64,000 bases of DNA from Eucommia ulmoides (Eukaryota > Streptophyta > Magnoliopsida > Garryales > Eucommiaceae): NCBI GenBank assembly GCA_016647705.1, contig CM028327.1, positions 43,030,017 through 43,094,016 on the forward strand. Reading direction: 5' to 3'. Shown one piece after another: positions 6,715 to 63,400 of this stretch. The notes under the pieces are model-generated. The model saw only the letters and a program-made list of their open reading frames with translations. It was not told where the DNA came from and searched no databases. The translations under genes and the position numbers were made by a program. Positions within the stretch are counted from its first letter, which is position 1. Each line of letters starts with the position of its first letter.

Positions 6715-7489
6715 TAAATTACCAATGGTTGCATATATATATATATATACACACACAATTGTCTATAAGCACTCGGTGATTGTCCATAATTAGATCCATT
6801 GATTTATCTTATTCATCATTTTTTGGGCGCTTAATTTATGCTACAAATATGAAGGGATGATAATAAAACCAAGAATAAATAGTGAATCTTAGTGAAATAT
6901 GTATTCCAGCAGCTGCAGCATACATGTCATCTATCTGAACCTATATTCATGTCCATATCTAATGAATCAAACCTCATTTTGGCCATGAATTAAAGAGAAG
7001 CAGACTGACAATCTTATCTAATTAATCGAAATCCTCCCTTTATTTCTACTCGATTTACAAATCTCAATTTTTTATTTTATTTTTTAATCAAACACCCATT
7101 TTCATAATAGATATTTGTATGGATCCCAATAGATAAGCTCAAACATTAAAACACCCATTTAATTATTTATATTTTGAGAAAACCCCATGTTTGCATTTCA
7201 CACGCACTCACGAGAGAGATGGAAGAATTGTTGATGTATTTTTAGAATCATCAATCAAGCTAAAGAAGGAAAATTCCACCAAATTCCTTCATTGAAATTT
7301 TCTATTTCTACTTCTCATCAATCAAGATAAAGAAGGAAAATTCCACCAAATTCCATATTAATATCTAATTTTTTTATGATTATTATCAATATTTTAGATA
7401 ATAATAAAAGAATTTACAAAATTACAACCTTGCAATTCTCAAATTATTGAAATATTAATGTACAACAACTTAAACAATAACAATGTTGG
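6715..7489. other. AT-rich spacer with a short direct repeat
   Basis: Contains a (TA)n tract near 6731-6748 and a direct repeat of about 40 bp (ATCAATCAAG, AAAGAAGGAAAATTCCACC) at about 7250-7290 and 7317-7357. No gene recognised. Confidence 0.4.
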
Positions 7490-10400: not shown

Positions 10401-11850
10401 GTTACACAGTAATAATCTTTATAAATCAAACATTTGCCTTTTACTATACATTAACTAAATATCAATTCTATACCACAGTTATAATCTCTATAAATCTAAA
10501 GAAAGACCAAAGCAGAGTGGACGACATCACATTTCACAGAGCAGAAAATATTATTTCTACATCAAGTAAAACATAATCATTCTTATGATCAAAACTAATT
10601 GATGGACAATAATATTTAATGCACAGTAATGTTACTGCACAGTAATTTTTAATGCACTGTGAAGTAATAGTATTGCACAACAACCCCAAAGAACGTGGGG
10701 GGAGGGGGATGATCATATGAACATGTACAATGTGGGGGAAGAACAAGATAATTCAAAACGTTCCAAATATCGATTTTTTACATCATAGTAATATTTGATC
10801 AACAATCCCACATCAATTTTTGTTACACAATAGTTTTTTCTCGACAAACTCACATAAAAAATAAAAAATAACAAACTGTTTAATCCAAACAAGGCCTTAC
10901 ATGGATTTTTGGTATGCAGTAAAAATCTCAGTAAAGCAAACATGACCAATGAAAAAGAAGAAGATAGATATTCAAACCAAGAACTCAACATCTACTTTGC
11001 TACACAGTGACTATTCTTTAGACCACCTTTTGCCCTTTTTTTAAGTAGCATGAATTAAACAGTGTATTTGCTACACAATAATTATTTTCTCAACAATCCT
11101 AACAACCCAAACATTACTAATGAGATGGAACCACAACGAAATTCAATAACATGAATTCAATATATAATTTTTACTGCACATTAACCATCTCAACAATTAA
11201 AATATCAACAATAAAGGAGGGAGAGAGAAATTAAAAAATCGAAGACCCCAATTTATGATTTTTGCTACACATTAAAAATCTCAACGGAACCAAAGATCAC
11301 CAACGAGATGAAACCAAAGGGAAATACAAGAAATCGACTTCAAATATGAGATTTTTGCTACACATCAACAATTCTAACAACCCAAACAATAAATATTTCA
11401 AGAAATCAAATATCAACAAAGTTTACAAACTGAAATCACATTGATAAATGAGGTTTAGAATCCGTAATCACTTTAGCAAAATCAAGCATAAACGCACAAC
11501 GAAAATCACAATACATATATACACAAACACCCAAATCAACTATGAACAGGAACAAACCCTTACAGCATTAACTATTTCTTTGAGATCAATTAGGGAGTTT
11601 TACAGCAATCGTTGAACAACAATTGAGCAAAGCTCTTTTGTGCAAGCTGTGAAATTCAAGTACAGGGATAAAAATCAAAATTTTGAAAAGTTTTATAGTT
11701 TATGATTTTTGCTACATATATACATAAACACCCAAATCAACTATGAACACAAACAAACCCCCACATCAAAACTCGCTTATTGCACAACATTAACTATTTC
11801 TTGAGATCAATTGAGGATTTTTACTGCATGATGGTCGCAACGCCCTAAAC
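7490..11850. repeat. Degenerate array of roughly 90-bp units with a TGCTACACAGTAA motif
   Basis: Dozens of copies of GATTTTTGCTACACAGTAAC, or close variants, recur every 80-100 bp (for example near 7535, 8229, 8325, 8406, 8525, 8615, 8706, 8802, 9440, 9556, 9738, 9830, 9913, 10000, 10182, 10275, 10398). Each is followed by a block like TCAACAACCCACATCAAC, ATGAAAAGGAAC and TTCAAAACAAGAATTCAA. Units are diverged, so this is an old array. It is split into two blocks (about 7490-8880 and 9200-11850), each followed by a GC-rich module. A 150-bp segment around 7385-7550 recurs at 8093-8245. No protein is encoded. It may be the internal repeat region of a non-autonomous transposon, or a dispersed minisatellite; no family was recognised. 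Confidence 0.75.
8880..9190. repeat. GC-rich module A closing array block 1
   Basis: A sharp switch from AT-rich array to GACGACGGYGTTGG-type sequence, sharing AACGGCGAT, ACCGCGACAAGATGCTTC and GCGCCTCTCCTCC with the module at 11860-12170. It reads like a 5' UTR or first exon on the minus strand, but no protein family is recognised. Confidence 0.5.
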
Positions 11851-16318: not shown

Positions 16319-16979
16319 TGATGGTGTCAAAAATTCTCAACACGTGCAATCAGTTTTTGACATGCCAAAAACCTTCTCAACTTTTATTTTCTACTTGTAA
16401 AACCAATTAGTTCTTAAGGGGGACATCGGTGTGATGTCGGCCAAAGAGCCTCCGGCGTGAGAAAAAATCAGTTTGTTTTATGAAGAAAGCTTAAGCATTT
16501 GGATCAATCGTAAAAATAACGTGTTGATACCTTTATATATATATATATAGAGATTTTTCCAGATTGTGCCATTTTGTTGGTAAGGTTGCCTGTTTCGTGA
16601 TCCATTCCTATTAACATGGGATATGGCCACGATCTCCTCCCATTCAATATGGGAGAAGATCTCTGTAACGCTCCCATTAAACATGGGTTGTTACAGTCAA
16701 TCGGGGGTAGCGTTCCTCATGTATAGGGGAAGTGGGAAATGGTGCGTTGACCTGCTCCTGGCTTTGTTACTATGGGTCCTGATTTCCCATGGTTCGGCCC
16801 ATAGGTGAGGCCTGCTTTGTTTGTGTACTGGACCATTAAGGTCTTTTTCCAGTTGGGCTTGATGCGCTCAACCAAGATCATATATCGAGTTGTGTCTTTC
16901 GGGTTGGATCATCGACCCGATCCGACCCACGAGGGCAATCAAGCCTTTAATAATTATGAGCAGGAGTTTTCCTATATCA
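16319..16979 (-). repeat. Left (3') LTR of the Tat element
   Basis: A 661-bp LTR, TGATGG...TATATCA on the plus strand. Collinear with 40826-41359 plus 47488-47610. A TA-rich tract near 16535-16550 is the main length difference. Confidence 0.9.
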
Positions 16980-26347: not shown

Positions 26348-27698
26348 TGATAGGTGTGATTTATCTATTTATTTCCAAATCGGTTTTGCTGGTTTTAGAG
26401 TATTTTTATAGTTTTTTTTATATGTTTTTATATGTTTTTATTTTTTTTGGTATAAATCAGGTGTGTGGGGTGAAAAGGTAAGAAAACGGATCAATAACGA
26501 TGAAATCGGATCAATAACAGTGGAAAAACAAGCACGGAGGCATTATTCAAAACAGCAACCCACCGCCTAGGTGGTGAAATTGTAGAGAGGAACCTAAATC
26601 TGCTGAAAGTTCACCGCCAAGGCGGTGAAACCGCAGAGAGGTTCCTGAATCCATCGCTTCTTCCACCACTGTAGCAAAGATCAAACCGACATATCCACCA
26701 CCTAGGCGGTCACTCTGTACCAGATTTAGATATTTATTTAGATATTTTAGGATATTTTGTTCTATTTAATCCCTCTTTCTCCCTCATTTTTTATATAGCT
26801 CTTTAGATCATTTTTAGAGAGGATTTTGGGGAACTCAAGCAAATCCTAAGGAGAAGAACACAAAGCAAAGAAGGAAAAACGATCTTGGAACGTTCTTAGT
26901 GATAAATCTTCGGACTACGGCTAGTTTTTCTCGTTTCTTTCTTCATCTCTTAACTTAGGATTATTGTTTGAGTATGTTTAGCTCGTTATTCAATGTATAT
27001 ATGGTTATGGCCGTTAGCTAAACATGGATTGTCTTAGGGATTAATAATATTTATAAAAGTGTTATTTGTTTGAGTTTGTGTTTCATTAATGGTTGTTCTT
27101 CGCTATTTTAATTGTGTTTATCATGTTTTCATGATTATATGCTTAAATAGATATATTGAGAATACGGGATTTGACACTCGGAGAGGTAACCCCGGATTCA
27201 GACTAGGTTAAACACAACGCAACAATCCAATAACTCGGGAGGGAGTTGGAAAGTATGCAATCAATGACGTTGGAACGAGACTCACATGACCTAGTGTCGT
27301 CAAGACAATGAGGGGGACTTCTTCGTTGACGCGAAATCACGTATTCACTTATCTTACACTCGAGAAAAGTGGTGAGTGAGTTTACGAACCGAGATTGTTG
27401 AAGAAGTTGAATATCATTATTGAAAACTAAACGAGATCAAACACGCATTTAAGTAAATAAAGTTAATCCTTCGGCAATCTTTTCCCTTAAACAACTCATA
27501 TTATTATTAGTATAATTCACTTAGTATTAATATAAATTATTTTTTATCACTTAGATAAAATTAGATTATGATAATTGTGGTACTCAATAATAATTTCAAC
27601 CAATCCCTATGGACACAACATCCTTACTCTCCTAAACTATACTAAAACTTGACCCGTACACTTGTGGTGAAAGTGGCGACACGTAATTGTGGCCACCG
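26348..27698 (+). repeat. Left LTR of the Athila-like element
   Basis: 1351 bp, TGATAGGTGTG...GGCCACC. Contains three near-palindromic CACCGCCTAGGCGGTG motifs (26561-26577, 26611-26629, 26695-26712). Confidence 0.88.
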
Positions 27699-33299: not shown

Positions 33300-34374
33300 T
33301 GATAGGTGTGATTTATCTATTTATTCTCAAATCGGTTTTGTTAGTTTTAGAGTATTTTTATAATTTTTTCTATATGTTTTTATTCTTTTTGGTATAAATT
33401 AGGTGTGTGGGGTGAAAATGTATGAAAACGGATCAATAACGATAAAATCGGATCAAGAACGGTGGAAAAATAAGCACAGATGCATTATTCAGAACAACAG
33501 CCTACCACCTAGGCGGTGAAACTACAGAGAGGTGCCTAAATCTACTAAAAGCTCACCACTTAGGCAGTGAAACTGCAGAGAGGTTCCTGAATCCACCGCT
33601 TCCTCTACCGCTACGGCGAAGATCAAACCGACATACCAACGCCTAGGCGGTGAATTCCATCGCCTAGGCGGTCACTTTGCATCAGATTTAGATATTTATT
33701 TAGATATTTTAGGATATTTTGTTCTATTTAATCCCTCTTCCTCGTTCATTTTCGATATAGCTCCTTAGAGCATTTTTAGAGAGGATTTTAGAGAACTCAA
33801 GCAAATCCTAAGGAGAAGAACACAAAGCAAAGAAGGAGAATCGATCTTGGAACGTTCTTAGTGACAAATCTTCGAACCACGGGTAGTTTCTCTTGTTTCT
33901 TTATTTATCTCTTAACTTAGAATTATTGTTTAAGTATGTTTAGCTCGTTATTAATTGTATATACGGTTATGGCCGTTAGCTAAACATGGATTGTCTTAGG
34001 GATTAATAATATTTATAAAAGTGTTGTTTGTTTGAGTTTGTGTTTCATTAATGATTGTTCTTCGCTATTTTGATTGTATTTATCGTATTGTCATGATTAT
34101 ATGCTTAGATAGATATATTGAGAATACGGGGTTTGACACTCGGGAGAGGTAACCCCGGATTCGAACTAAGTTAAACACAACACAATGATCCAATAACCCT
34201 GGAGGGAGTTGAAAAGTGTGCAATCGATGACGTTGGGGCGAGACTCACGTGACCTAGTGTCGTTAAGACGATGAGGGGGACTTCTTCGTTGACGCAAAGT
34301 CACGTATTCACTTATCTTACACTCGGGAGAGGTGGTGAGTGAGTTTACGAACAGAGATTATCGAAGAGGTTGAA

Positions 34375-35855
34375 TGTAACGACTCGATTTTTCAGGACCG
34401 CTACTACGATTTCTCCTATAGAGAATTTCTACCTAAAACCGACTGGTCAAATTTCTAATTTACAAAATTTAGTAAATTTTTATAATAATGACAATAACTT
34501 CAGTTGTCAATTTTACGGCGGTGTCTAATAGATATAATAATCACCATTTTAAATACGGCCAAATACCCAATCATCTATTTTAATTTAATCCGCGAATTAT
34601 ATATATGGCGACAAGAAATTAGAAATTAGAAATTAGTAATTCGTTTACAATACGGTGGCAAAATTTTAAAGTCTCGAATTTATAATTTAAAACCCAATTT
34701 TCAACATTTTATTAAATCTGTTATCTTAAAACAATTTTTTTTTTATTAAAATCGAATATTCAATATATTACAATTTTAGATATTTTACAACGACTGCAAT
34801 ACTTATCGTTATCGATCCCTCTGGTTATAACGGTAAATAATAATTACAATTTTATTTTTTCAAATAGAATTTCAAATAAAATTCTCTTCGTCCTTTTGTC
34901 CCAACCGACCTTGAAACCAAAACTGTAGGGTTGTGAGCCAACGCTCAGTAGAACTCCAACCCCTCTAATACATACATTTAATTAATATGCCACATAAAAC
35001 ACATTAGCATGCTTTTTCACATAATTTTCACTTAGTCCAAATTATCTCATATAATTTAATAGGTGAAAATTCCACAACCATTTACTAGATAATTTCATAA
35101 TCAAACAATGAGATAATTAAATACATATATTAAGAGAGTTCGGAATTTTAGCTGTTCCGAATCTTTCGCCAGCCGTGAGATAGGTTTTTTATTTTTATTT
35201 GGGTTATTTGTGTAAAAAAAAAAATCCTTTTCTTTTTATCCCTTTTTTTTTCTTCTTCTTCCTTCTTCGCGTTTTTGTTTTGCGCGCTTGAACGACCACC
35301 GCCGCGGCGGTCGTTTCCTGCAGGTCTGTTTCTACTTCGTTCAGCCGAACGTCTATCTCCTTCCACTCCTTGCTCAGCCGAACGCCGGCGACCTCACATC
35401 CACACACCCACAGAGATCTCCGATCAACCCCACCGAACTAAATAGAACATCGCCGACGATCAAACACACCGGAACCACCCATACCTAAGATCGCAGATCT
35501 CTCACGCACACACATCACAACATACACACACACACTGTCACCTCGTCGGATCAACGGAAACACACACACACCCCGTCCACGCACCGGCGATGAACGGCTG
35601 ACCGACATAATCACACACACATGATGACGGCGGTGACGGAGAAAATAGACGAAACACACACACAATCACCGAATGACGGTGACGAACAGCCGACTGACAC
35701 TGCCGGACAACCAGGCAGCACACACACACGACGACCCATACTGCTGGACCGGACGGCGACGCCACATCTCTCTCTCTCTGTCTCTCCTCTGTTTTTCTAT
35801 TTTTTTTCAGTTTGTGTTACTGTTTTGCTTCCTTTGTTTCAAGCGTGTGTGTATA

Positions 35856-35925
<70 letters not shown>

Positions 35926-36249
35926 CCATGTTCTTGCCATGTGTCATCCCGTTGCTCGTTTGTTTCCAAGTGTATGCACATATATGTGTGTGTGTGTGCG
36001 CGCGCGCGCGCAATAGCCGGTTGCCTTCGGGATGAAGGAAGAAAAACATATAATTTAAATTACACTAGTCCTCCCTCTATGTTCTTTAAGTTATTAGTTA
36101 AACCCAAATTCTAAATTTAATATTTTTAAAATTACGAATTAACCCCTAAAATTTTAAATTCAATTAATAAATAATACCATCTACCCCGTTATTTCTAAAT
36201 GTACTAAAATACGACTTAAATTGTGCTTATATAAAATCAGGGTCTTACA
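34375..36249 (+). mobile_element. Solo LTR 3 inside the right Athila-like LTR
   Basis: 1875 bp, TGTAACGACTCG...GGGTCTTACA, with an exact TTGAA duplication (34370-34374, 36250-36254). Its 3' 150 bp (AACCCCTAAAATTTTAAATT, ACCCCGTTATTT) match solo LTR 5 closely, but its 5' half differs, so it is a separate subfamily. Fossil. Confidence 0.88.
35866..36012. repeat. (TA)n and (TG)n(CG)n microsatellites
   Basis: About 28 TA repeats at 35866-35922, then (TG)n running into (CG)n at 35985-36011. These are inside solo LTR 3. Confidence 0.95.
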
Positions 36250-36553
36250 TTGAATACCATTATTGTAAACTAAACGAGATCAAATATGCATTTAAGTAAA
36301 TAAAGTTAATCTCTAGGCAATCTTTTCTCTTAAACAACTCATATTAGTATTAGTATAATTAACTTAGCATTAATATAAATTAATTATAAATTATTTTTTT
36401 ATCGCCTAAATAAAATTAGGTTATGATAATTGCAGTACTCGATAATAATTTCAATCAATCCTTGTGGACACGATATCCTTACTCTCCCAAACTATACTAC
36501 AACTTGATCCGTACACTTGCGGTAAAAGTGATGACGCGTAATTGCGGCCACCA

Positions 36554-40825: not shown

Positions 40826-42301
40826 TGATGTTGCCAAAAATTCTAAGCACATGCAATCAGCTTCTCACATGCCAAAAACCTTCTCAACTTCTTTTTTTCT
40901 ACAAACAAAATCGATTAGTTCTTAAGGGAGACACCAGTGTGATGTCGGCCAAAGATCCTCCAGCATCAAAATAAGTCAGTCTATTTATGAAGAAAGCTCG
41001 AGCACTTGAATCAATCGTAAAAATAACATGTTGATATCTTCCTTTTTTTATAGACTTTCTCAGATTGAGCCGTTTTGTTGGTAAGGTCGCCCGTTTCGTA
41101 ATCCTCACCTATTAACATAAGATATGGCCACAATCTCCTCCCATTCAATATAGGAGAAGATTTCTGTAACGTTCCCATTAAACATGGATCGTTACAGCCA
41201 ATCGGGGGTAATGTTCCTCATATATAGGGGAAATAAAAATGGTAGGCTGACCTACTCTTGGCCTTGTTACCGTGGGTTCTGATTTTTTTTGGTTGGGCCT
41301 GTAGATGAGGCCTGTTTTGTTTGCATACTGGATCATTAAGGTCTTTTTCCCGATGGGCTTACTACAACAAAAATTACTTTTGAGGACACCTAAATGTGTC
41401 CTAATATATATTCTTTTGGGACACATTATGTATTGAGACAATTAAAAAATGTGTCATATAAACTATTGTCCCAATAACTTATAAAGACACTTATTTTTTT
41501 GTCGCATTAGTTTATATTTATTAGGACACTATTATGTGTCCTAATAAATCTGTTGATAATTTGTATTAGAAAGGCTTTCGGGACCTACATAAGTGTCCCA
41601 ATAAATCTTTGATAGGACAAAACAATGCATCCCTTAAACCACTAATAAATAATTTATAGAACAATTTTATGTGTCCCAAAAAGTAAAATTTAATTAAAAA
41701 ATAATAAATATATTTAATTTGGCTAAAACCAATAATCCAAATTTATCCAATTGAAAATCAAATATTACTAAAAATTGTGAAACAAAATTTGGGAACAGAA
41801 TCGAAGCACAAACAGAAAATATGTTTACTATAACAGATATATTTACCATGTAGTCCATATTTTTGTTTGAAAACAGAAACAGAAACAAAATATTTTTTCA
41901 AACAAAATTTTTTGTTTTCTATTTTCTGAGAACAGGAACAAAAAAATCTGTTTTTTGAGAACAAAAACAAAATCTGTTTTCTAAAAAAATCGCCATCATC
42001 AATGTCAAAATCGCCACATAGAACAACTACCTCTACCTTCAGCGAAAATGGTCGAGGGCAATGTATTGCCAAACTGCAACTGCCAGGCCCTTGATTGAGA
42101 GGACTCAGCTTTATTAAGTGAAGATCTGCAACGAACATAAAATGAATTTAGATAGCGACGTCCAACAAAAGATAATAATTAGAAAAAAATATAAAAAATA
42201 GTTCAGTGACAAAATATTATGATTTGTATAAAAATCGTTTGCATATTTAGGCAAATATAAGTGAGATATATCTTGGTGGTGCATTTGTTCCATTCATGTA
42301 C

Positions 42302-42974
42302 CTTTGCCATGATCAAAAGGCAAGCCATCAACTGGTACTGATTTGTAACCGATACTTATTACCACTGCCTGTCTTACACCTTGTTCCAGGCTACAGCCAA
42401 CCGGCATGCTTAGATAATAATAAGGGCCACAACATGTTTACCATACTCTTTGGCTTAAAGTATAAGCAGGATGCATGATGTTTACCTTTCAGCATTGTCT
42501 TCTCAAGGCGTAGCCCAATTACATGGTCACCTCTATCATTTGAACTGAGAAACCTATCAGGCTTCCGAAAGAAAACAAAATGGAGTTCACGTTGACCTGA
42601 GGTAGGATGAGAAAGGTCAGTTGTTGCCGCTTTGGACAGCAGCTCATATACCCTCCTCTGAATTCGATTATTCTTCAATTCTTCCTTTGCCAGGGGACAA
42701 AATCAGGATACATATAAGTCATTAGCGGAAGTAAGATCGCTCAATATTGCTCTCAATACTTCTTTATAATAGACAAATTAGAAAAGGAAAATAAGCAAAA
42801 GAAGAAAATGTTGCAAATAGCTGGACACCATTGTTCTTTCTTGATGAAAAGAAATCAGTTCATATTGATAAAAGATGGTACAGAGTGGAGAAGCAGGTGG
42901 CGGCAAATGTACCTCATCTGCTGGTGTTTGTAGCATGTCTTCCTTTCTAATGTGAATGTATAAATTTTTAATAG
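42302..42974 (-). pseudogene. Captured exons of mitochondrial adrenodoxin-type NADPH:ferredoxin reductase (ADXR/MFDR)
   Basis: Three exons in order on the minus strand, each with GT-AG borders. 42913-42974 gives IKNLYIHIRKEDMLQTPADE. 42486-42684 gives NNRIQRRVYELLSKAATTDL and RELHFVFFRKPDRFLSSNDR then GLRLEKTMLKG. 42302-42390 gives VVISIGYKSVPVDGLPFDHG. These match consecutive parts of plant adrenodoxin reductase (Arabidopsis At4g32360), FAD enzymes that pass electrons from NADPH to mitochondrial ferredoxin. Introns are retained, so the capture was from DNA, not mRNA. The upstream catalytic half (FAD/NADP glycine motifs) and the C-terminus are missing, so it cannot make the enzyme. Other spliced-looking pieces nearby (42040-42128 and about 43540-43620) may come from other genes. 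Confidence 0.85.
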
Positions 42975-43796
42975 CTACAAAAAAGATAAGCCCTTCATAT
43001 AAACCACCTTGAAGCAATTTTCATGTATTAGAAAAAGTAAGATGTCATAATTTAAACTAAAGATAACAGAACCTACTAAAGGCGTAGTAACAAGCTTATG
43101 GAGTGAAAATAACTAGAAGAACAATGATCTTCACTACCTAATGAAGTAACGAAGTGTTCATAATTGTATGGAAGTCAGTCAACAGTCGTAGCTCCAAAGT
43201 AGATGTGCCACTGAAGTAGGATGCTAACAATGAGTTTTATGTGTTTGTGTATGTTGACGGCAGGGGGAATTCAAAGTTCATTTGGTGATCGCAAAAGCAG
43301 CAGTATGAATGCGATCGTATTAACTAACTAAAAAATAGTTCCTGTTGTCCATCATCCGTTGAGATCATGGATAGATTTAAGAACGTCAAGCAAATCCATC
43401 AACTATGAACGAAACATGAACGAATCAATGGATTGATATATAAACAGTGAAAGGACATAGGAATCAACAAGGTAAATTTGAAATCTATGATTTTGAACTT
43501 AAATCCTATTCAAACAAGAAGATACCTCATGAATCTGCAAATAATTCAACAACGCAGAAATCAAAATCAATGTCATCAATGAGTACATCCTTCACAAGTT
43601 CATAATCACCATCTCCCTGTCACTCATTTCAAGAAAAAAAAATTGACTTAATAATAAGAAGATAATAAACACTATGAGGAGTTTGGTTAGTGCTTCTGTT
43701 TTTGCTTCCAAACAAACTTGGAAAAGATTAATACCCTATTGCAAAACTAATTCGAGAAAACATATATATAAACCATTAACACACTTGAAAAGCAGC

Positions 43797-46389
43797 TGTC
43801 ACAACCCGGACGTGACTACAACATGACATCACCAATACCCAAATAACCACATAGATAACTATATACACGCACGGTATAATACAAACATCTATTATGGGGG
43901 ACACACCCGTCCCGAAATTTTACTAAGATTTGTATTTAATCATGAACCTTCTATAAGTTCGCCTTTGACAGCCTCTCTCCAACGCCTATATGACTCCATC
44001 ACGTAACTCTACCTAGTGCCAGTAGGGGACCGACTCCTAGCCATTGTACCTGCGAGTGTACTGTCTTCTTAGTAAAATATTTTTTTTAAAATATTAATAC
44101 GTTCTAAATATTTCCACAATTTAGTATGGATCAAGCACAAGTATATAAGCAATGAAAATAAAGTGATACAGATAAGTTCCATCCAAATCCATTTAGTATA
44201 AAATCATACCAATCATCATAATAAATAATATCAAATCTACCAATATACGTAAAACACCACATCTCAAGCACCAATCTCAAACACACACCTCCAATACACA
44301 CACACTGGCCAGCCCTAGTGATCGTTTTAACCTCACGATCGGGAGTTGCAACGGTACCGTAACATTCGTAGAAATGCCTTCCTACAAAATATCCACACCC
44401 CTTTTTTGGGGAGAAATATAATCCACACCCCTTACGGGGAGAAACAGAATCCACACCCCTTACGGGGAGAAACAACTATGGCATCGTCAAAATCAAATAC
44501 AATATCATCGAATCATAACTCAATAAATATCGTCTATTCAATATTGTCAAATCACCACACCTACCACTTTTCTTCAAAACCAGTTTTTAAATTCAAAAGT
44601 CATCTTTCACACCTTCTTTTAAAGAAAACGTCCGATTTTATCAAAACCACTTTTCCATCCTTTATTTTTAGAAAACCAGGCATTTTTAGAAAAATAGATG
44701 TTTCTTATTTTCTTTTCTTTTTTAAAAACACCGTCTAATTTCACCAAATCCAGCGGAAATTCATTTCCAACTTCTTTTTGAAATCTATCGAAGCCCAGTT
44801 TACCAATTCATTCAAATCCTGCTTGATCCATATCGTTTATAAATTCATACAGTTTAGGTAATCACAAATGTCATCTCATATATATATAGAAAATAGTTTG
44901 GTAAGAAGACAGTACACTCACCTCACTTCTTGTGTTACCATAACTGCACCGTCCAAAGCCTACCGGGATGCTGTCGTTTGCGAACCTAGTAATGATAGGG
45001 TCTAAATTAATATTTTTAAATAACCTAACATGCAATGCAGACCATAATTTCCATATTTCTCATTCCCCGAGTTAATTATACAAAATTGTTATCTATACCC
45101 ATTTTCTGTATCCATATTAACTGTACGATATTATTAAAATTAGCGGTTACGAAATTATCGTAACGAGTATAAAATTTAATGCTAACAATTTAACTAGATG
45201 GAAATAATAGTTAATGATTTAAAATATTAATCAACGAAGTCATTATTTATTCCGAATCATCACCGGTCCCTAATTGGGTTTTTGATTTTTCTATTGGGGT
45301 GGTTAGTGTAATTAGTTTTTTTTTTCCTTTTTTTTTTTTTTTTTTTTCCCTTTTCTCTTCTTCTTCCTTCCTTTTGTTTCCTGTTCACGGTTCCTCCTGT
45401 TTTTGCCGACGACGACACAGCCCCTTCCTCACCAGCCTCCTCCGCCGGCGACTCACCACCCACGAACAGTGGGCGGCCCACACACACCCGAAGCCCTTAC
45501 ACCAACGGTGAACGGCCAAAACACCCGGCATGCACACACACACATAGTCTCGTCAACATGGACGTCGCAGCAGCTCCGGCCACCGTTATCGTCTACAGCT
45601 GTCGTCGGCGATCTGAACAGACACACACACACAGTCCCCACACGCACACATACACTCCACCGGCGACCCAACAGTGCCGCCGCCGACCCTCCACGTCTAC
45701 CCACCTGATGACCCATGCACCCCCTGCCCACTTAACCTCCGTCGGCCGGCGATCAATAGCCGATCACCTACTGAAAAAAAATAGAAACAGAATACTTATA
45801 AAGACTTACCGAACGATGGAAACGAACGGCGATCGGTCACGCCGTTGACGAACTCATCCCTTCCCACGGCCGCCGAGCAAACCACCGGGAATTCCACACG
45901 ATCGTTTTCACAGCAGTGGCCACAGGAACATACCCAGGCAGCTACAGGACACACGCTCTGCCTTCTCGCCGGCGGCACGTCGATCACGGAGCCCCGACGT
46001 TTGCCTCCTCTCTCTCTCTCTCTAGATTTTTCAAGTTTTCCTTCCCCTTTTTCCCTGATTTCTCATCTCAGCACACGAAGGAGGTGATTTAACGCATGAA
46101 ATTAGTGGTTTTAAACCAATTTTGAGCCTGCCACGTTGCCCCTCGATCGTCGCTCCTTGGCCGGTGGGTTGCCATCAGTGTGCCGGGTGTTTATACGCAC
46201 ATATATATAAAAAACAAAATTAAATTACACTTTCCTCCCTTCATTTTCTTTAGGATTTTCATTTTAGTATATTTCTATTTTTTAAAAGTTTCAAAATTAT
46301 AATCTTTGCCCCTAACATTTTTGTTACATTTTTTTTTTTTTACCTAATTTCACCCCGAATGACGTACATGTTGTAATTGGGGTCTTACA
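43797..46389 (+). mobile_element. Solo LTR 4 inside the CACTA element
   Basis: 2593 bp, TGTCACAACCC...GGTCTTACA, with exact GCAGC duplications (43792-43796, 46390-46394). It shows the shared CCTAGTGCCAGTAGGGGACC block (44010), the GGTACC palindrome (44351) and an array of CCACACCCCTTACGGGGAGA units (44390-44475). Also present are a TTAAATAACCTAACATGCAA block (45020) and a GC-rich, CA-rich 3' third. Fossil. Confidence 0.9.
44385..44475. repeat. 33-bp tandem repeat in solo LTR 4
   Basis: Three units of about 33 bp built on ATCCACACCCCTTACGGGGA; each unit is a small hairpin (CCCCTTACGGGG). Confidence 0.85.
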
Positions 46390-46394
46390 GCAGC

Positions 46395-47040
46395 AATCGA
46401 AGTCGAGCTTGAAGAAGAATAACTTGAGATTGAATCGATAGCTTGAGAAATTGGCTCGATTGGAACGATTATCCGCTATTAAGCTCCAAATCTGGTGGCG
46501 AAAAATAGAAACAGCTGAATTTATGTATCAAAAGTAGAGTAAAAAAGAAATGGATCTATTCAATCACCTAATTACAGATCTGGAGGCGAAAATTACTAAG
46601 CAATTCCAGAAATAATTGGAGCTGAAAGGCGAAAATACCTGAAAACCTAATCCTAAACCATAAACATACCTAAAAAACAGCAACCAAAGCCGAGCTTGAA
46701 GAAGAACAGCATGAGATTGAATCGATAGCTTGAGAAATTGGCTCGATTGGAACGATTATCTGCTATTAAGCTCTGATCGATTCTCAAAAATTCTTCATTC
46801 ATTTTCTTCGATCGATTGAGAAGTCAGAAGAGAAGTGATTATTCTGAAAATGAATGGATTGAGCGATGAATGCATGAATGGATTAAGCGCCAAAGATAAA
46901 TGGATGAATGGATTGAGTTTCTGGTCGAGCTTCTTCGCAAATGATTTTCCCACAGCCGAAAACACTTCGCTCAATAGTATGTAGATATATTGAAACAATG
47001 GATACTGCCTGAAAACACTCAATGAAAATAAGACCAAATG
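46395..47040. repeat. CACTA internal region with a 95-bp direct repeat
   Basis: A segment at 46395-46490 (GAGCTTGAAGAAGAA, GAGATTGAATCGATAGCTTG, AACGATTATC) recurs at 46682-46772, about 287 bp away. Beyond it, 46830-46920 holds repeated ATGGATTGAGC/GAATGGATTAAGCG words. No protein recognised. Confidence 0.7.
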
Positions 47041-47615
47041 AAAAATAGGTATTTACATCTAGGTATATCTAAAAATTCATATTTCTATTTTAGGTCAAAC
47101 TCTTTTAATTGAAACTACCGAGGACCAAAGTGAAAATAAATAAAATGGAAGAGAAGTCTAAAAATACTTTAGTTCATAATTATACAAATAGTTTATACTT
47201 ATTTTTCAATTTGATTCATAATTATACTTTTTTAATTAAAGATTAAAAATAAAAAATTTATTTCTGCCCTTAATAGGACACTTTTATATGTGTCCTATTA
47301 AATTTGTCTATAATTTTTTTATTTTTTTATTATATGTGTCTTATTAAATAAATATTATAAAGATATTATTTTTTGGGGGGCAAATTATAAGGACACTAAT
47401 ATTAAGTGTCTCAATAATGTTTTATAAGGACACTATTTATGAATTGTCTCTAAAAAAGTGTCATAATAAGTCATTTTTGTTGTAGTGGCTTGATGCACTC
47501 AGCCCTGATCATATATCGGGTTATGTCTTTCGGGTCAAATGATTGACCCAATCTAACCCACGAAGGTAATCAAGCCTTTAATAGTCATGAGCGGGAGTTT
47601 TTCTATATCACCTTT

Positions 47616-50567: not shown

Positions 50568-52047
50568 AAAGGAAAATTTGCACAAACCACCCAATAGAAA
50601 TAAAAATCCAATCTCGCGGCCATTGGAAAATCCGGGAAAGGTAGAATTTCGAACTTCTTTAATATATGCATTTAATTGTTTAAATTGAAATGGCGATAGA
50701 AAATAGTGAGACGGTTCACATGAATAAATTTGATATAATAAACTATAACGGAGTAACATTAGTTGAATAGTAATATTTCATAATAAAATACGGGGAATAA
50801 AAGATCACGGAAATTAGGGCCTGCATTTCATGGTTAGGTATTTTTTTTTACATAAAATATTAATTTAGGCCCTGTCACTATTAGGTTCGCAGGCATCGGA
50901 GTACCGGTAGAGAATAGGTGGTTAAAGTCTTCAAAAACAGATAATCAGGTGAGTATACTGTCTTCTTACCAAACTATTTTCTATATATATATGATGACAT
51001 ATGTATGATTTCATAAATAATTTGGATCAAGCAGGATTTTGAGGAAAGTTGGTAAAGTGAATTTCCGAGGAATTGTGTTGGTTTCTAAGAAGAATGATTA
51101 AAAATAACTTTCGTTGGACGGGTGGTTTTGAAAATAGAGTGGAAAATATATGGTTTTTCTAAAAATGCTTGGTTTTCTAAAAACAGAAGTGGAAAAACAG
51201 TTTTTACTGAAATCGGTGGTACAAAGGTAGAAAACTGATTCTTTTACTGACATGGATGGTACTTTTAAAAAGGAAAGGAAAAAACGTGATTTTAGAAATT
51301 CTCCCCGGAAAGGGGTGTGGTTTATATTCTCCCCATAAGAGGATGTGGATGTTTCTCCCCGTAAGGGGTGTGGATTATATTTCTCCCTAGAAGGGGTGTG
51401 GATATTTCGTAGGAAGGCATTCCTACGGATGTTACGGTACCGTTGCAACTCCCAATCGTGAGGTTAAAATGATCACTATGGCTAGCCAGTGTGTGTTTTG
51501 GTGGAATGGTGGTTTGTGATGTGTGTTTGAGATGTAGTGTTGTACTTATATTGGGTGATTTATTATTTATTATGGTGGTTGGTATGATTTTATACTCAGA
51601 TGGATTTGGATGGAACTTATTTATATCGCTCTATTTTCATTACTTATATACTTATGCTTGATCCATATTTAATTGTGGTAATATTTAGAATGTATTAATA
51701 TTTTAAAAATGTTTTACTAAAAAGGCAGTACACTCGCAGGTACAACAGCTAGGAGTCGGTCCCCTACTGGCACTAGGTAGAGTCCGGCGATGGTGTAATA
51801 TGGGAATATTTTAGGAGAAACTGTCCGAGGCGAACCTGTGAGAGCTTCATTGTTGTTATACTTTACTTGTTATTATAATTCAGGAACGGGTGTGTCCCCA
51901 GTTAGAGATGTTGTATATGGTTAAAATTTTGTGATTGTATATTTTTGTATGCGCCTTGTCATTTACTAGTGGGTTTGAGGTTAAGATGAGGTCGTGTCGA
52001 CGTCACGCCGGCCCCACGGTGACGGGTGTCCGGGGTGGGGTATGACA
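49468..52047 (-). mobile_element. Solo LTR 5, long TTACA family (reverse orientation)
   Basis: 2580 bp, TGTAAGACCC...GGTATGACA on the plus strand, with exact AACCT duplications (49463-49467, 52048-52052). It carries the complementary versions of all landmarks of solo LTR 4: CACTAGGTAGAGTCCGG (51770), the GGTACCG palindrome (51434), and CCCCGTAAGGGGTGTGGAT units (51298-51405). It also has TTAGGTTCGCAGGC (50880), a GC-rich third with (TG)n, and a 43-bp A run (50524-50566). Fossil. Confidence 0.9.
50524..50566. repeat. Poly-A run of about 40
   Basis: A nearly perfect A homopolymer inside solo LTR 5, between the GC-rich zone and the AT-rich part. Solo LTR 4 has a T-rich tract at the matching place (45317-45348). 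Confidence 0.9.
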
Positions 52048-54481: not shown

Positions 54482-57400
54482 CTGCAAAATATAGTTAAAG
54501 ATTACAGGTCTGTTTGATATAATTGAAAATTAAGTGTTGAATTTGAAGTGCCGAAATGTATTAAGTACTTTTGAGTTTTTTTAAGGGTTTTTTACACTTT
54601 GCATGCTTGATGTTTGACTACTATCTCACTTTAATCCTTGTGGATTTAATTTGAACACAAAACATACTGAAATTTCCTAATCATCCCACTTTAGTCCAAA
54701 TCATTTTCCATGCAAGGGGCTTTATGGGTATCCCTAGTCTTTTTTTTCCCATTTTCTCCGCCCAAACAATCAGGAATAGATATGCATTCACACACGTGTG
54801 TTGTGTCTTTTTTTTTTTTTTTTTTGGGGGGGGGTGGGGAGTGGGGCAGAATTGTGGATAGAGGTGGGAAAAAGAAAGAGGCTGAAAGTGTCCGTGAAAC
54901 CCTTTAAAAATAATGAGGTGCATGGCACATGACTATTTGTGGTCAAAAATCGTAACGGATTTAATCATTTGTGAAGTGGGATGATTAGGAATTTTATGGT
55001 GCGTTGAAATTAAAATTACGAAGACCAGAGTGAGATAATGGTCAAACTTTATAGGTGCAAAGGGTCAAAACCCTTTCTTAATACTTCTAAGTCCTAAACA
55101 AAACAAAAGTAATTCTATAAATTTTTCTCAAAAAAAATAAAAATATTCACAACTTTCTCTTTCTAAAAATTCAATCTACAACTTACCTCAATGTAGTAAT
55201 TTCTCTCTACAATTGTTTTTATTTTATATAACTTTTTTTTTTTGAAGAGTTCATAGTAGTGAGTCACCCGTCACTTAGAAAAAAAAAATTAAACTATTTT
55301 TAAGTGATTGTTATATTTTAAGTACTTCATTTTATTATTAAACACACTTAATATGATAAATATTTAATACATTCAATTTTAAGTGTTTAATTATGTCATT
55401 AAGCAAGACCTCAGTATCGATAAATTGACTTATAAACAGATAATGGGTAACCTTAATGTCATGGACTTGATTTTCTCTAATTATCCGTGCGACACTTAGC
55501 CTCGATTTCAACCTCTTAGAAGTACTAAGTAAGCCTTACCAAGACAAACAACCAAACAAACTTTGGGAAGGAAGTAAAGAAAGCTAGAGAGTTCACAAAA
55601 GTAGGAGAGCAAGAGTGAGCTTGGGAAAATGAACGCTTGTATTGCTTTATTCCAATTTGGTGAGGAACAAATGAGTTTCCTCCTCTTTATATACGCCAAA
55701 GGTCTTACAATGGACAATCGAGATCATTTCGATCTAACAGCTACAATCAATCATCTAGAGAATTCTACTAGATATTTACATAAGAAAATTCTAGCGAATG
55801 AGGTATTTAGGATGCTCCACATTTCTCTACAATATCCTAGAATATTCTAGAAAATGGGAAGCCTCTAAGAGTACCTTCTTCCCCTCCCCTGTATATACAA
55901 GACTTACCTTTCATACTTAGAGAATTCTCCTAGTAGGAAGGCTAATGTATAAGGGGCGTTATATTCTCCCCCACCTATACTCGCAACGGCCTCATCGCGC
56001 CCTCATCCTTGAACCTTTGGATGTGATCCGTGAATTGCCAAAGTTGGTCTTCATGTTCCCAACAGGCTTCACTATCCGGCAAGTTCTTCCACTTGACCAA
56101 ATACTCGTGGTATTTTGGCACACCTCTCCTCTGTATGACCCAATCGGCTAGTATGCAATCAACCTCTTTGTCGAAAGAAGTGACTACTGCAGTTGGCGCT
56201 CGTTTTGATACCCTGCATGGTTCTTCCGTGTCTTCATGATATGGCTTTAAGAAACTGATGTGGAAGACAGAGTGTATCTTTAACTTGGATAGGAGGAGCT
56301 TGTAAGAGACCTTCCCCACACGTTTTATCACCGGAAACGGGACCTCGTAACGCCGAACAAGGCCCTTGTGAACTTTCCTCAAAGATTTGAATTGTTGTGG
56401 TAAAAGTTTCACAAGAACAGCCGTCTAGACTTGTCCGCCCATTTCTTCATTTTTTTGGCTGCTTTGTCTAGGTACTTCCTAGCCATATCGGTTTGTTTGT
56501 TCCACGCCTTAGCAAATTTGTACGCTGCCGGACTCTTCCCATCATAGCTTGTTGCTAAGGCGTTGGGCATCAAAAGTTGCCTTCCCATAACAATCTCAAA
56601 AGGGCTTTGATCAATCGCCTCACTCTTTTGCAAATTGTACGAGAATTGAGCGATGTCGAGCAGTTTGGCCCAATCCGTTTGGTTTGCACTCACTTAGTGC
56701 CATAAGTATAGCTCCAGCAAGGCATTGATCCTCTCCGTCTGCCCATCGGTTTGTGGATGAAAACTTGTTGAGAAGTCCAAATTAGTCCCTAGTAGCTTGA
56801 ACAACTCCATCCAAAATTGGCCAGTGAATCAAGGATCTCGATCACTGACAATATGTTGAGGAACTCCCCATAGTTTCATCACATTTTTCAGGAAAAGTCG
56901 GGTAGCCTCCTCTGCAGTACAGTCGGCTGGTGCAGGGATTAAAGTGGCATTCTTACTGAATCGATCGATTACTACCACGATACTCCCACAGCCTTCTAAT
57001 TTCAATAGTGCCAATATGAAGTCCCTGGAGACAGTCTCCGGTATGGACAGCGATTCTAACAATCTTGCTAGGTGTTGTTGTTCCACCTTGTCTTGCTGAC
57101 AGACAAGACAAGTCCTGACGTAGGCCTCTATGTCGTCCGGCATACGAGGCCAGTAGTAAGCATCCTCCTTGATGCGACCTAGCAATAGGCATTTGGGGCT
57201 ACTAATAGATGCTAGTTCGCCCTTACGACTTAAGGCATCTGCTACCACGTTCACTCGTCTAGGCTTGTACTCCAGTCGATAGTCAAATTCTGCAAGAAAA
57301 TCCTACCATCGTGCTTGCTTTGGACTTAGCTTTTTCAGCGTCTGGAAGTAGCTAGTGGCAACGTTGTCAGTCATGATGACAAATCGGGATCCCAAGAAAT

Positions 57401-60400
57401 AGTGCCTTCACGTTCGTAGGTAGTGAACCACGGCTATCATTTCCTTCTCTTGGACAATATAGCGTCTCTTGGTGTCATTTAATTTCCGACTTTCATACGC
57501 CACAAGATACCCTTCTTGCATAAGAACTCCTCCAATAGCAAAGTCAGACGCATCAGTGTGAACCTCACAAGGCTTAGAGAAATCGAGCAAGCATAAGGCT
57601 GACTCTTCTGAGACAGCCTTCTCTGCAAAAGCATTTTGGTATTTCTCAGACCATTCTCATGCCTTGTCTTTCTTCAACAGATCAGTGTGAGGAGCGGCTC
57701 GAGCGAAATAGCTCTTTATGAAAAGCCAATAATAGTTTACTAGCCCCAAAAACGAACGTAACTCCGTTACCTTTGTGGGTGGTTCCTAATCTTGAATCGC
57801 CTTAACCTTGCACGTTTCCATCATAATCTTCCCTTGCCACACCTTATGACCAAGGAAAGACACTTCCTCTTGTGCGAAGGAACATTTTTCCACCTTAACG
57901 TAGAGCTCATTTTTGCGCAGTACTTGTAGGACTCGTTTGAGATGTTGGACATGTTCGTCAAAAGTCTCGCTATAAATAAGGATATCATCCAAGTAGACTA
58001 CAACGAACATGTCAAGTAACAAGTGAAAAATCTTGTTCATTAAAGTACAGAATGTGGCCGATGCATTGGTGAGGCAGAAAGGCATAACTAGGAACTCAAA
58101 GGAATCGTATCTTGTAACACACGTTGTTTTGGACTCGTCTCCCTCCGCAATTCGGACTTGATAATACCCCGAGCGCAAGTACAACTTCGTGAAGTACCGG
58201 GCTTTAGCAAGTCGATCAAAGGGATCGGGTATTTGTTCTTGATCGTGATCTTGTTGAGCGCCGGATAATCAATGAACATTCACAATGAGCCGTCCTCCTT
58301 TTGAAATAGCATTGGTGCGCCGTACGGTGCTTCGGACACCCACAAGTGTCATGCATCTAGTAACTCCTTAAGTTGCCTCCTTAGTTCCTCGAGTTCAAGA
58401 GGCGACATACGATACGTTGCCATCGCCATTGGTTTGGCACCTAGTTCCAGCTCGATTTTGTGATCCACCTCTCTGCGCGCTGGTAGCCTCTTCGGCAACT
58501 CCTTCGGCATAACGTCCTTGAACTCTTCAAGAACTACTTTGACATTCCTTGGGACGTTGGGTAGGTCAAGTACTATGGGATCGTCTGTTGTTTCTTTCAA
58601 TACAGCAAGGTAGTTGGCTTCTCCCTTCTTGAATGCCTTCTTAAATTGCATAGCAGACAAAGCTTGTTTCTCAACCTTGACAACACGTTCCGCAAGGACC
58701 ATGCAAGCCTTGTCGCTATCCATGATACATACTGAATTAGCAAAGAAATAGAAACAACATTTACCTTATCGAGGAACTTCATGCCACTCACAACTTTAAA
58801 ATCGTCTACCACCGACACATCCATCGTCCCTTCCCATTGTCCGATGTTGGCACGTATGCCTCGTACCACTCCATGTGGCTTGCCCCAGTATCGATAAGGG
58901 CCTTAGTGAGCACTCCATTAATCGTGGTTTCGACAAACATTAGCCCCTTTTGCAAAACTTCTTGCCCAGAGCATTTTGCCTTAATAGCATTCAACGCACC
59001 AAGAGAGCCCATATGTACCTCGTCCTCTTGTTGTTTGTGTTGTTCCTCGTACTCCATTGTCATAGCGCTTTACGCTTTTCGTTTGGGACATTCACGAGCC
59101 CAATGTGATCCGTCGCAAATGAAACAATTGGTCTTGGGATGTGAACGATCATTGGCATTCCATGACCTCTCCTTCCAAGACGAGGACGAGGGTTTTGTGA
59201 CCCCCAGCATCCTGATTTCCATGGCCACATTGGGAGGATATGTGGTCTCCCCGACCTTGGCCTTGATTGTACCTTTTAGGCTTGCCTTTCGTCTTAGTGG
59301 TTTCGCCCATTAAACTATAGTCGATTAGCGATTCGACTATGGCTATAGCGGTTGAGAGGTCTTGCACACCTCGGTGCGTCAATTCCGTCTTGGCTCAATT
59401 TTGTAACCCATCAAAGAAGTAGAACAATTTATCCTTGTCGGTCATATCAGGGATCTCTAGTTTCAGAATTGCGAATTCTTTCATGTAGTCTAAGGGTGTG
59501 CACGGGTCGGGTGGGGGGTTTTTTGGACAAATCAGAGACCCGACCCGAACATGTTCGGGTGAAGAAACTACAGGCCCGATTTCGACCGAAAGGTTGCTGG
59601 AAACCGGTGTTGAGCAGGTTTATCAGATTATGGGCGGGTTCCGATCGGGTCCGGTTGGTTTGTATGTTGAGATGGAGTAACGCATAGCATAAATAAAAAC
59701 CCTAATTGAAAATGAAATAAAAAACCCTAATCGAAACAAAAATCAAAACCCTAATCGAAGTAGAAATCAAAACCCTAATCCTTACAGAAATCAAAATCGA
59801 AGTTCAAAAAACAAAACATCAAAATCAAAGAGCAAACTTACCTTCTGAGTCTCTGAATAATGATCGACGACGACGTCGCGAGTCTCGCGACGAAGAGCTT
59901 GGCCGACGACAGACGATGAAGAGCTTAGATCAGAGAGAGAGAACGAAGCAGCCGCAAAAGATGCGATGAACAAAGCAGCGGCAGAAGATCGGTCGAAATG
60001 AACGAATGAAACCCTAAAAAAAGGTCATTTATTTGGAGGTGCTGGTCTGGTCGGGTCGGGGTGAGTTCTGGGTGGGAGATCTAAAACCGAGGCCTGATCC
60101 GCAAAGCTTCTGGTCGGATCGGGTCTTACTCGATCTGAAGAAAAAAAAAAAAAAACAGATCAAAGACCCGAAGATTTCGGGCCGGGCCGGGCCGGGCTTT
60201 TATGGCGGGTGGGTCGGGCCCATCGGGCTTTTTGCACAGCCCTAACGTAGTCCGGGATAGACCCCGTTTGTTTTAGCCGGCGTAGCTTACCCTTGCTTCC
60301 GCTTCGGCATTCTCAGGATAAAATTATTTTTTTATTTCTCTTTTGAAATCATCAAGCGTATTAACCACACATGTACCTTTGGAAATTTCTTCTTTTTTTC

Positions 60401-63400
60401 TGGCGCCACCATAATAGTGTTGCATCTGTTAGGTACGTCACCGCATTGTTGATCTTTGAGGCCTCACGTACCGTCCCCTTGGCAACGAAGTATCGTTCCA
60501 GTTCTCGAGCGTTCCACTTCCCGAGAAAGTGTTTGGTTTCGGAATGTCGATGTCCGAGACCTCACGAGTGGCATTAATGCTCGACAATACCGCCCGCTTG
60601 CACAGAGCCCAATCTGATCGGGCATCCTCCAGTTCCGCCTGGAATTTGGTGAGTTCACCTCCATAGTAACTTCTAAGGCTTTTCTCCAACTCAACCCGAA
60701 CATTGGAAACTTCACCTTCTAAGTGTTTCTTTATGCTATTTAGCTCTAAGAAGACTAGGTTTCGAAGAGCACGTACCTCACCCCGTAGGGAGTCACCAAG
60801 TTTACGGAGGGACGCCTTCATCGCTTCGTTAATGGCTTTGCTCTTCTGCCTCAAAACCATCAAGATGTCACCCCATGTCCTCGAAGTCAGTCGTCGCTTT
60901 TGCCATCATTTCCTCCAGGCTAGTCACCCGTCCCTCAAGGCTTGAGATAAGGTCCTTAGACTTGTTTCTCTTACCTTGACGAGTAGCGGGCGGCTCTCCT
61001 CCCGGCCGCGTTCCATTACAGGCCCCTCCACGTTAGATGTTTCGGTTGATGCCATTACCACAGTCCAAGCTCAATACCTCGAGCTCTGATAACAGCTGTC
61101 ATGAACTTGCTTTTCCCGAAGTATCCGTGCGGCACTTAACCTCGATTTCAACCTCTTGGAAATGCTAAGTAAGTCTTACCAAGACAAACAACCAAACAAA
61201 CTTTGGGAAAGAAGAAAGTAAAGAAAGCTAGAGAGCTTACAAAAGTAGGAGAGCAAGAGCGAGCTTGGGAAAATGAAAGCTTGTACTGCTTGATTCCAAC
61301 TTGGTAATGAGCAAATGAGTTTCCTCTCCTTTATGTAAGGCAAGGGCCTTACAATGGACGGCCGAGATCATTTCGATCTAACGGATACAATCAATCATCT
61401 AGAGAATTCTACTAGATATTTACATAAGAAAATTCTAGAGAAGGAGGTGTCTACGATACTCCATAGTTCTCTACAATATCCTAGAATATTTTAAAAAATA
61501 GGAAGCCTCCAAGAGTTACCCTCTTCCCCTTCCCTATATATACAAGACTTACCTGCCATACTTAAGAGAATTCCTCTAGTAGGAAGGCTAATGTACAAGG
61601 GACGTTACATTAAGGTGACTTTATTTTGGTAATTGTACTTAAGTTGCTTCTTTCATATGAGGTAATAATATTAATTAAAATAATTTGTTAAAAGAAATTA
61701 AAAAATTTAGACCTAAAATAGTATTGGTAGAAAATCTCGAATCGACATCATGACTTATCGTGTTAATTGGAGGTAATTACCTAAGTTGGTGCATTTGTTT
61801 TAGCCTTTTAGGTAGTAATAATTTAAATAGTTTCTCTTAGAGGAAAAAATAAACCAAAAATAGCATTGCCGCGGACTGCCGGGGTCTTGTTGTAGTTAAA
61901 TTAAGACATTTCACCTTAAACCCTAAACCCTAACAACATGCGCGGGGTTCAACAAAGGAATAGAATGATTAGAGGAATGAGCATTTTATTCCCTTGTTTG
62001 GTACGCGGGATTAGTTGTCAATCTCATTCTCAGGTATTTGCTAATTCTACATATCAATCGTGGTATTATTAGGTTGGATGGGTCATGGTTCAAAATGGAA
62101 AAATATTGGTAAGTATTGTTTCCATTTTCCCATCACCATTTTCAGTGAAGTTGCCGGAATGTCGCCAGACATCCAGAAACCTTGCCGGAGTTCCAGCAAC
62201 TTCGTTGGAATATAGCCCGAACTCCAACAAACGTTTTTGGAATGTACAGCAACATCTTAAAATGTTGACCAAACGTTATTGGATCTTTAGTGATATTGTT
62301 AAAAAAAAAAAATCAAAACTCCGGTTATTGCAATAGAATGTTGCCAGAACTCCAATAATGTCACTGGAATGTTGTCGGTTTTATTCACATATTTTGTTTT
62401 TAAATATTCACCATCATAATTAACATACTTTATTTCACAATTCATTTCATTCCTATAAAAAGGCAACCAAACACGGGAATGATAATGGTCATTCTATTAC
62501 ATTCCATTCATGCATACCAAACACAGCATAATTGATTTTCGAGTAAATTAAGCAAAGGTTTGGAAAGTCACCTTAGAGTTTTCAAACTTCATAACCAGCC
62601 TCATGTATTGGTCCTGCGCCTCGGGGTGGCGTACCATGGACTTTACTCTTGCCAGAGCTTTTTCAACAGCAACAAACTTCTGTTTTCGACCGGCTCTCAA
62701 GTATTCATACTCGTCGTTCTTATCTGTCTCAGATATTGTATTTTCATTCGTTTCATCCCTTCGAAAACCTCGCAAACCGGGTTTTTTCCTCCTCCAACGT
62801 AGTATGGCCTTTTCAACAATGCTAACGGACCAAACGACCTTTTTATATTGCTTTCGAACTTGATGACCCCTCACATGAGCCTGAAACAATTTAAACAAGA
62901 GTTACTTCATGCTTCTTAAAATATAAACAGACAATGAAATCTAGCAAAAAGTGTTTTCCTTCTTTGTTTCCCCTAATCAAGCAAAGAAGTATCATTAAGA
63001 GTGTGTTTGGATAATGGATTTGGAGGAGGTATTCACAAATAACCGTTGTGGCAGGTGGCAATTCATGAATATATATCAAAATTTCAAATCCTGCCAGGGT
63101 TATATTGTGAAAATCGAATCTTCTGGTTAGAATCAGAATGTCCGGCAACTGTTCGTGAATGCTTAAGACTAGATAGACTTCGTTTCTCCAACATTCGAAA
63201 AATCAAAGGAATTTCTTAAGTCAGGTTTTAAAATTGAATGTTTTTGTGTTTTCGTTATTTTATTTTGTTGTTGATAGCCTTCAGAAGTCAAGTTTTGTCC
63301 CCTCTGAATTTTATATTCTTTGCATTTATTAATAAAGTAATCCTCGCTCCGCCGAGGTTAAAAAATAAATTTGGAGGGATTTCATTTGGAGAAGAGATTT

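Follow-up and report, generated by a model that had tools for sequence, protein, structure and literature searches.

What does a CACTA-type transposable element of the plant Eucommia ulmoides carry between its ends, and how might it have come by that cargo? The element occupies positions 41360..47487 (6128 bp, including a nested insertion resembling a long terminal repeat, LTR) of a 64,000-nucleotide stretch of contig CM028327.1 (NCBI GenBank assembly GCA_016647705.1, positions 43,030,017 to 43,094,016 of the forward strand); this whole stretch is called the window below. On its minus strand, it contains segments related to mitochondrial ferredoxin (adrenodoxin) reductase (ADXR). We consider it very probable that it is a non-autonomous plant CACTA (En/Spm-type) transposon of the Pack-CACTA, or transduplication, kind, which carries captured ADXR gene DNA and maybe also a scrap of a malate dehydrogenase gene. 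The original prediction, a CACTA element with captured ADXR exons, is well supported as far as the element and an intron-containing ADXR-like fragment are concerned, whereas exon 1 and the acceptor site of exon 3 are less firm.

The limits of the element were set by its terminal inverted repeats, its target-site duplication and the existence of an empty site. Its flanks (40826-41360 and 47487-47610) align with approximately 83% identity to one unbroken copy of a host repeat on the plus strand at 16319..16979. This unoccupied copy is continuous across the insertion point, with one GCT, and it lacks exactly 41360-47487 plus one GCT. Because the 16319-16979 copy runs through the insertion point with a single GCT, the element is an insertion into the host repeat, and the coordinates first proposed for it, 41360..47487, proved exact. 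GCT is present at both flanks (41357..41359 on the left and 47488..47490 on the right), consistent with the 3-bp target duplication of CACTA (En/Spm) elements. An alternative 4-bp duplication, GCTT, is possible if the left end begins at ACTA, and the flanks rule out 5 bp. The duplication had been placed inside an LTR. The GCT duplication and the repeat as its host were both recovered, but the LTR nature of that repeat is only likely, and its right copy stops at 47610. The empty site is followed at 17310 by a match to Transposase_28 (gypsy-type), slightly under the curated cut-off, so that the host repeat is probably the LTR of a gypsy-type retroelement.

The termini agree with each other, as had been noticed originally: the left end, TACTACAACAAAAATTACTT, and the right end, CACTACAACAAAAATGACTT (read inwards), are identical at 18 of 20 positions. 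The corresponding terminal inverted repeats lie at 41360..41379 on the plus strand and at 47468..47487 on the minus strand, the latter starting with CACTACAACAAAAA. The right end conforms exactly to the CACTA/TAGTG pattern, and the left end reads TACTA. In the whole window, the core 13-mer ACTACAACAAAAA is found a single time, as is its reverse complement, and these two sites are the ends of the element. Near their ends, members of the CACTA superfamily also have clusters of short motifs that point either way, and such clusters are found here. The left subterminal region (41360..41689) has nine GTGTC/GACAC motifs in the first 330 bp and the right one (47258..47487) has seven in the last 230 bp, which makes 16 in 560 terminal bases and 5 in the remainder of the element. 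Outside the element, no 330-bp stretch has more than three (sampled every 10 bp), and when each end was shuffled 2000 times by mononucleotides, the maxima were three (left) and two (right). The dense subterminal GTGTCC motifs reported earlier were likewise recovered, with seven and four occurrences in the two end regions, counting either strand, and 23 across the whole window.

The transposase of CACTA elements is encoded by autonomous members only. We analysed the 30 open reading frames (ORFs) of at least 40 residues that lie outside the nested LTR-like insertion. None of the 30 reaches the Pfam cut-off, and no weak match is to a transposase; the element is therefore non-autonomous. The strongest sub-threshold Pfam match is DUF5359, found with a short hydrophobic ORF on the minus strand at 43595-43735 (E=0.00027, 21.3 bits vs a cut-off of 25) and probably due to chance. 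No Rfam family reaches its gathering score in the window.

We then come to the cargo. The peptides of the three putative ADXR exons were joined manually on the expectation of an ADXR, and for this reason tests independent of the joints were also run. In the PDB, the top match of the joined peptide is bovine ADXR, with E=0.0029, or E=0.00068 if a longer exon 3 frame is used. Against residues 240-344 of bovine ADXR, the joined peptide scores 109, the maximum among 5000 shuffles being 53. When all stop-to-stop ORFs of at least 30 residues in the whole window (n=1172) were ranked against the same bovine region, those of exon 2 and exon 3 came first and second (scores 73 and 55; third 47), and these two ORFs share the same strand and are in the right order. 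A search of a plasmid collection with the joined peptide returned five records, all actinobacterial, three of which are annotated as FAD-dependent oxidoreductases. The best of them is a Rhodococcus protein (E=4e-5; E=6e-12 in a single comparison with the joined peptide). It is itself an FprA/ADXR protein over its length (PDB, E=3.9e-94 and 7.5e-83), and its gene adjoins a ferredoxin gene. In a translated search of the window, the whole Rhodococcus protein finds exons 3 and 2 with E=2.6e-8, and the other four matches have E>=0.16. Genome contigs of bacteria and archaea (no plants) were scanned twice, with 61 and 407 pattern matches, none of which was confirmed, and no relative was found. The presence of ADXR-like coding segments on the minus strand at 42302-42974 is thus borne out by the PDB, the ORF ranking and the Rhodococcus comparisons. 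By sequence comparison, the fragment is collinearly similar to the ADXR / NADPH:ferredoxin reductase family over the region that it covers.

The fragment has an exon-intron structure, read on the minus strand. The putative exon 1 (42913..42974, 62 bp), which is weakly supported, lies between a TTTTTTGTAG acceptor and a GAG/GTACAT donor. Intron 1 (42685..42912, 228 bp) is a phase 0 GT-AG intron. Exon 2 (42486..42684, 199 bp) is preceded by GGCAAAG and ends with AAAG/GTAAAC. Intron 2 (42380..42485) is 106 bp long if exon 3 opens at 42379, and an alternative in-frame acceptor opens exon 3 at 42364. Exon 3 (42302..42379) ends with VVISIGYKSVPVDGLPFDHGK at a CAAAG/GTACAT donor. Three exons with intact splice signals had been predicted; the GT/AG signals are indeed canonical on either side of the first two exons and at the donor of exon 3, but the exon 3 acceptor is not unique and exon 1 is weak. 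The sole computed support for the latter, itself weak, is a Streptomyces sequence that aligns collinearly from inside exon 1 onward, and its assignment also leans on a presumed likeness to the plant proteins. For exon 3, nine AGs were tried as acceptors. Two of them, opening the exon at 42379 and 42364, give an open and in-frame exon; one more is in frame but runs into a stop, and the other six are frame-shifted with stops. At the 42379 joint, the relatives hold 13-16 extra residues between exons 2 and 3. The frame of exon 3 is open upstream to 42437, and adding that stretch improved the ADXR match, so that the decay may represent a lost splice site rather than a loss of all the coding sequence.

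The recognised part of ADXR amounts to approximately 112 residues in three exons, devoid of a start region, of an enzyme that is approximately 450 residues long in full. For these reasons, the fragment cannot encode a working reductase. The FAD and NADPH sites of a full enzyme are not all present, and the full-length Rhodococcus relative finds no further part at E<0.16 in the window.

Other stretches of the element also look like exons. One of them, on the minus strand at 43526..43616, starts with GDGDYELVKDVLIDD directly after an AG at 43617 and has an in-frame stop near its end; it is possibly a fragment of a gene for chloroplast NADP-malate dehydrogenase. At 43616-43572, 12 of 15 residues are identical to positions 328-342 of the plant chloroplast enzyme (1civ). 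The likeness ends after those 15 residues, beyond which the remainder of the stretch cannot be aligned. With 43527-43616 as the query and E values up to 10, the PDB returned one match, a plant NADP-malate dehydrogenase, at a weak E=0.12. Trimming the query brought this to E=0.053, and the only other match was to malate dehydrogenase 7mdh (E=1.5). Across the window, the corresponding ORF ranks first of 2801 (score 69, next 31; best of 20 block-shuffled windows 45), but this test carries little weight and is circular because the reference was picked for matching this very fragment. A second open stretch (SSLNKAESSQSRAWQLQFGNTLPSTIFAEG), bounded by AG and GT on the minus strand at 42037-42125, has a phage tail fibre as its best PDB match (E=0.61) and no Pfam family, and the surrounding ORF stays below the cut-off. 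More than one donor gene had been hinted at from stretches at 43540-43620 and 42060-42128. The former is suggestive only, by virtue of its 15 malate dehydrogenase-like residues, and the latter has no database match. A chloroplast NADP-malate dehydrogenase gene as second donor is therefore plausible, on the strength of this short alignment, and unproven.

The element is itself interrupted. A TG...CA insertion of 2593 bp (43797..46389), which was not part of the original prediction, accounts for about 42% of its length. This insertion starts with TGTCACAACC, ends with GGGTCTTACA and is flanked by GCAGC target duplications at 43792..43796 and 46390..46394. From its ends and its duplication, we infer that it is a solo LTR. 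A relative of the insertion lies in reverse orientation at 50780-51783. Without the insertion, the element is 3530 bp long. An internal direct repeat of the element (plus strand) provides a relative date. Its first copy is split by the nested LTR into 43756-43796 and 46395-46486 and is 88% identical to its second copy at 46641..46773; removal of the LTR and of one GCAGC makes the 134-bp repeat (88%) continuous over the junction. By this alignment, the internal repeat is older than the LTR insertion. It might stem from the fusion of two related elements, as the Pack-CACTA model envisages.

Elsewhere in the window, we observed an LTR-like pair at 26348-27697 and 33300-36552 with 86-87% identity, whose right copy is broken at 34376-36249 by another insertion. 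The latter ends with GGGTCTTACA, just like the nested LTR of the CACTA element.

The following history would account for these layers. At an earlier locus, the stretch between the CACTA termini would have gained exons and introns of a mitochondrial ferredoxin reductase gene and perhaps the scrap of chloroplast NADP-malate dehydrogenase. The retained introns suggest capture at the DNA level. The unit of ~3.5 kb would then have transposed into the retrotransposon repeat with CACTA transposase supplied in trans, producing the GCT duplication. Finally, an LTR retrotransposon would have inserted into the CACTA element, leaving only a solo LTR after recombination. The supply of transposase in trans, a capture that preceded transposition and the order of CACTA before LTR are all inferred. 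A host gene fragment lies between the termini, as expected of a Pack-CACTA, and the ADXR fragment is most likely a passive, decaying cargo.

Several observations weigh against this reading. The left end opens with a T where a C is expected, and the target duplication is 3 bp long compared with the 5 nt given for rice and maize CACTA elements in one of two reports on Pack-CACTA elements (PMC8903248, PMC13317346). Joining the exon peptides by hand with ADXR in mind favours the match to that family. The first joined peptide had no match at E 0.001, and the joined peptide belongs to no NCBIfam or Pfam family. Exon 2 alone has no ADXR match among PDB entries, even with E values of up to 10 allowed; the exon 3 ORF alone finds bacterial FprA (E=0.008) and not bovine ADXR. 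The other four of the five plasmid matches are weak, with E from 0.08 to 1. The match of exon 3 to FprA would fit an origin of the fragment from another FAD-dependent oxidoreductase with this fold rather than from mitochondrial ADXR. We give that origin very little credence, as the top PDB match of the joined peptide is bovine ADXR and the presence of introns suggests a gene of eukaryotes, whose member of the ADXR/FprA family is ADXR. A further point concerns the order of events. No second copy of the element was seen in the window to prove that capture preceded the move, and the element, once its LTR is removed, matches nothing else there. This single visible copy is compatible with an addition of the ADXR fragment after the CACTA element had landed, for instance as filler DNA in break repair, in which case it would never have moved with the element. 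We regard such a late addition as unlikely: no insertion scar is evident by eye around 42302-42974, where borders are hard to place without the donor, and of nested insertions only the LTR has left a clear scar.

One may also ask whether the fragment is simply old host DNA, with CACTA-like ends that are fortuitous or that formed around it. The ends are short and AT-rich, and a 14-bp end motif with at most two mismatches has four matches in the window for a chance mean of 1.31. Because 8 of 100 shuffles give equally many matches, the end motif by itself is weak evidence. However, the two ends match at 18 of 20 bases and have dense subterminal motifs in common, and there is a copy of the host repeat without exactly the element and one GCT. 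Thus, the precise empty site contradicts the notion, raised at the outset as a possible refutation, of host DNA present before the CACTA ends formed around it; the same evidence speaks against ends that arose by chance, an idea we rejected, and we consider the whole scenario close to impossible. A different possibility is that the captured piece is functional, either transcribed and spliced or acting on the parent reductase gene through antisense or small RNA. Its splice signals are largely kept, and two of the nine acceptors give an open frame across exons 1-3; in addition, fragments carried by the soybean element Tgm-Express1 are spliced in vivo (PMC1947982). Nevertheless, the joint that keeps the frame leaves out residues that the relatives have, and the element lies within a retrotransposon repeat, broken in its turn by an LTR-like insertion. 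We therefore find a function quite improbable and favour passive cargo in a Pack-CACTA-like element.

Captured gene fragments have been described in other CACTA elements, and we compared them with the Eucommia element. Tgm-Express1 of soybean is a 5.7 kb CACTA element with five unrelated host gene fragments, located within an intron of a gene that is expressed, and its fragments can be spliced into host transcripts (PMC1947982). The Eucommia element resembles it in being a CACTA of similar size with exons and introns of host gene fragments. The two differ in that one donor family is recognised here, with a second only possible, instead of five fragments, and in that the Eucommia element resides in a retrotransposon repeat rather than in such an intron, where its exons would be spliced. 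Pack-CACTA elements of Arabidopsis, rice and maize are also non-autonomous, with CACTACAA-type ends and coding DNA captured between the termini. In the model proposed for them, tandem insertion is followed by mobilisation by the outer ends, and the cargo sometimes comes from more than one locus (PMC8903248, PMC13317346). By analogy, the tandem-insertion model would account for the cargo described here. Their families are recognised by clusters of copies, whereas a single copy is seen here. Finally, Cactavine of grapevine is a CACTA element that also contains host gene parts, including some in antisense orientation; it is larger, 10-25 kb, and its PPR-bearing copies have a transposase ORF (PMC2528002), whereas none was found in the Eucommia element. 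In searches of an open-access library (subscription papers were outside the scope), we found neither ADXR cargo in a CACTA element nor a CACTA element with NADP-malate dehydrogenase; a paper retrieved in connection with adrenodoxin appears, from its title and opening lines, to concern steroid production by bacteria. The event is an ordinary case of Pack-CACTA-like transduplication, for which Tgm-Express1 is a precedent, with no sign of a new mechanism.

The window contains two other repetitive regions. A chromovirus-like gypsy element at 55457-61611 is bounded by direct repeats (55457-55965 and 61097-61611) with 88% identity and its minus strand matches a chromodomain, an integrase and a reverse transcriptase. 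The region at 7391-11388 is a block of diverged direct repeats, many of them with units of ~90 bp.

As to what the captured DNA may mean for the plant, mitochondrial ferredoxin reductase serves iron-sulphur cluster and biotin metabolism. One could imagine that the exons and introns are transcribed in this CACTA family and that antisense or small RNA lowers the expression of the host mitochondrial ferredoxin reductase. We hold out only the faintest prospect of this; if it were true, and with the second, chloroplast redox-enzyme fragment, one element could touch the redox genes of two organelles. The element illustrates neatly how a CACTA transposon captures gene fragments, which is an established process, and it adds a case rather than a principle. 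As the empty site and the nested LTR-like insertion occur in one window, the layering can be read, from the host repeat to the CACTA element with its cargo and then to the LTR inside it.

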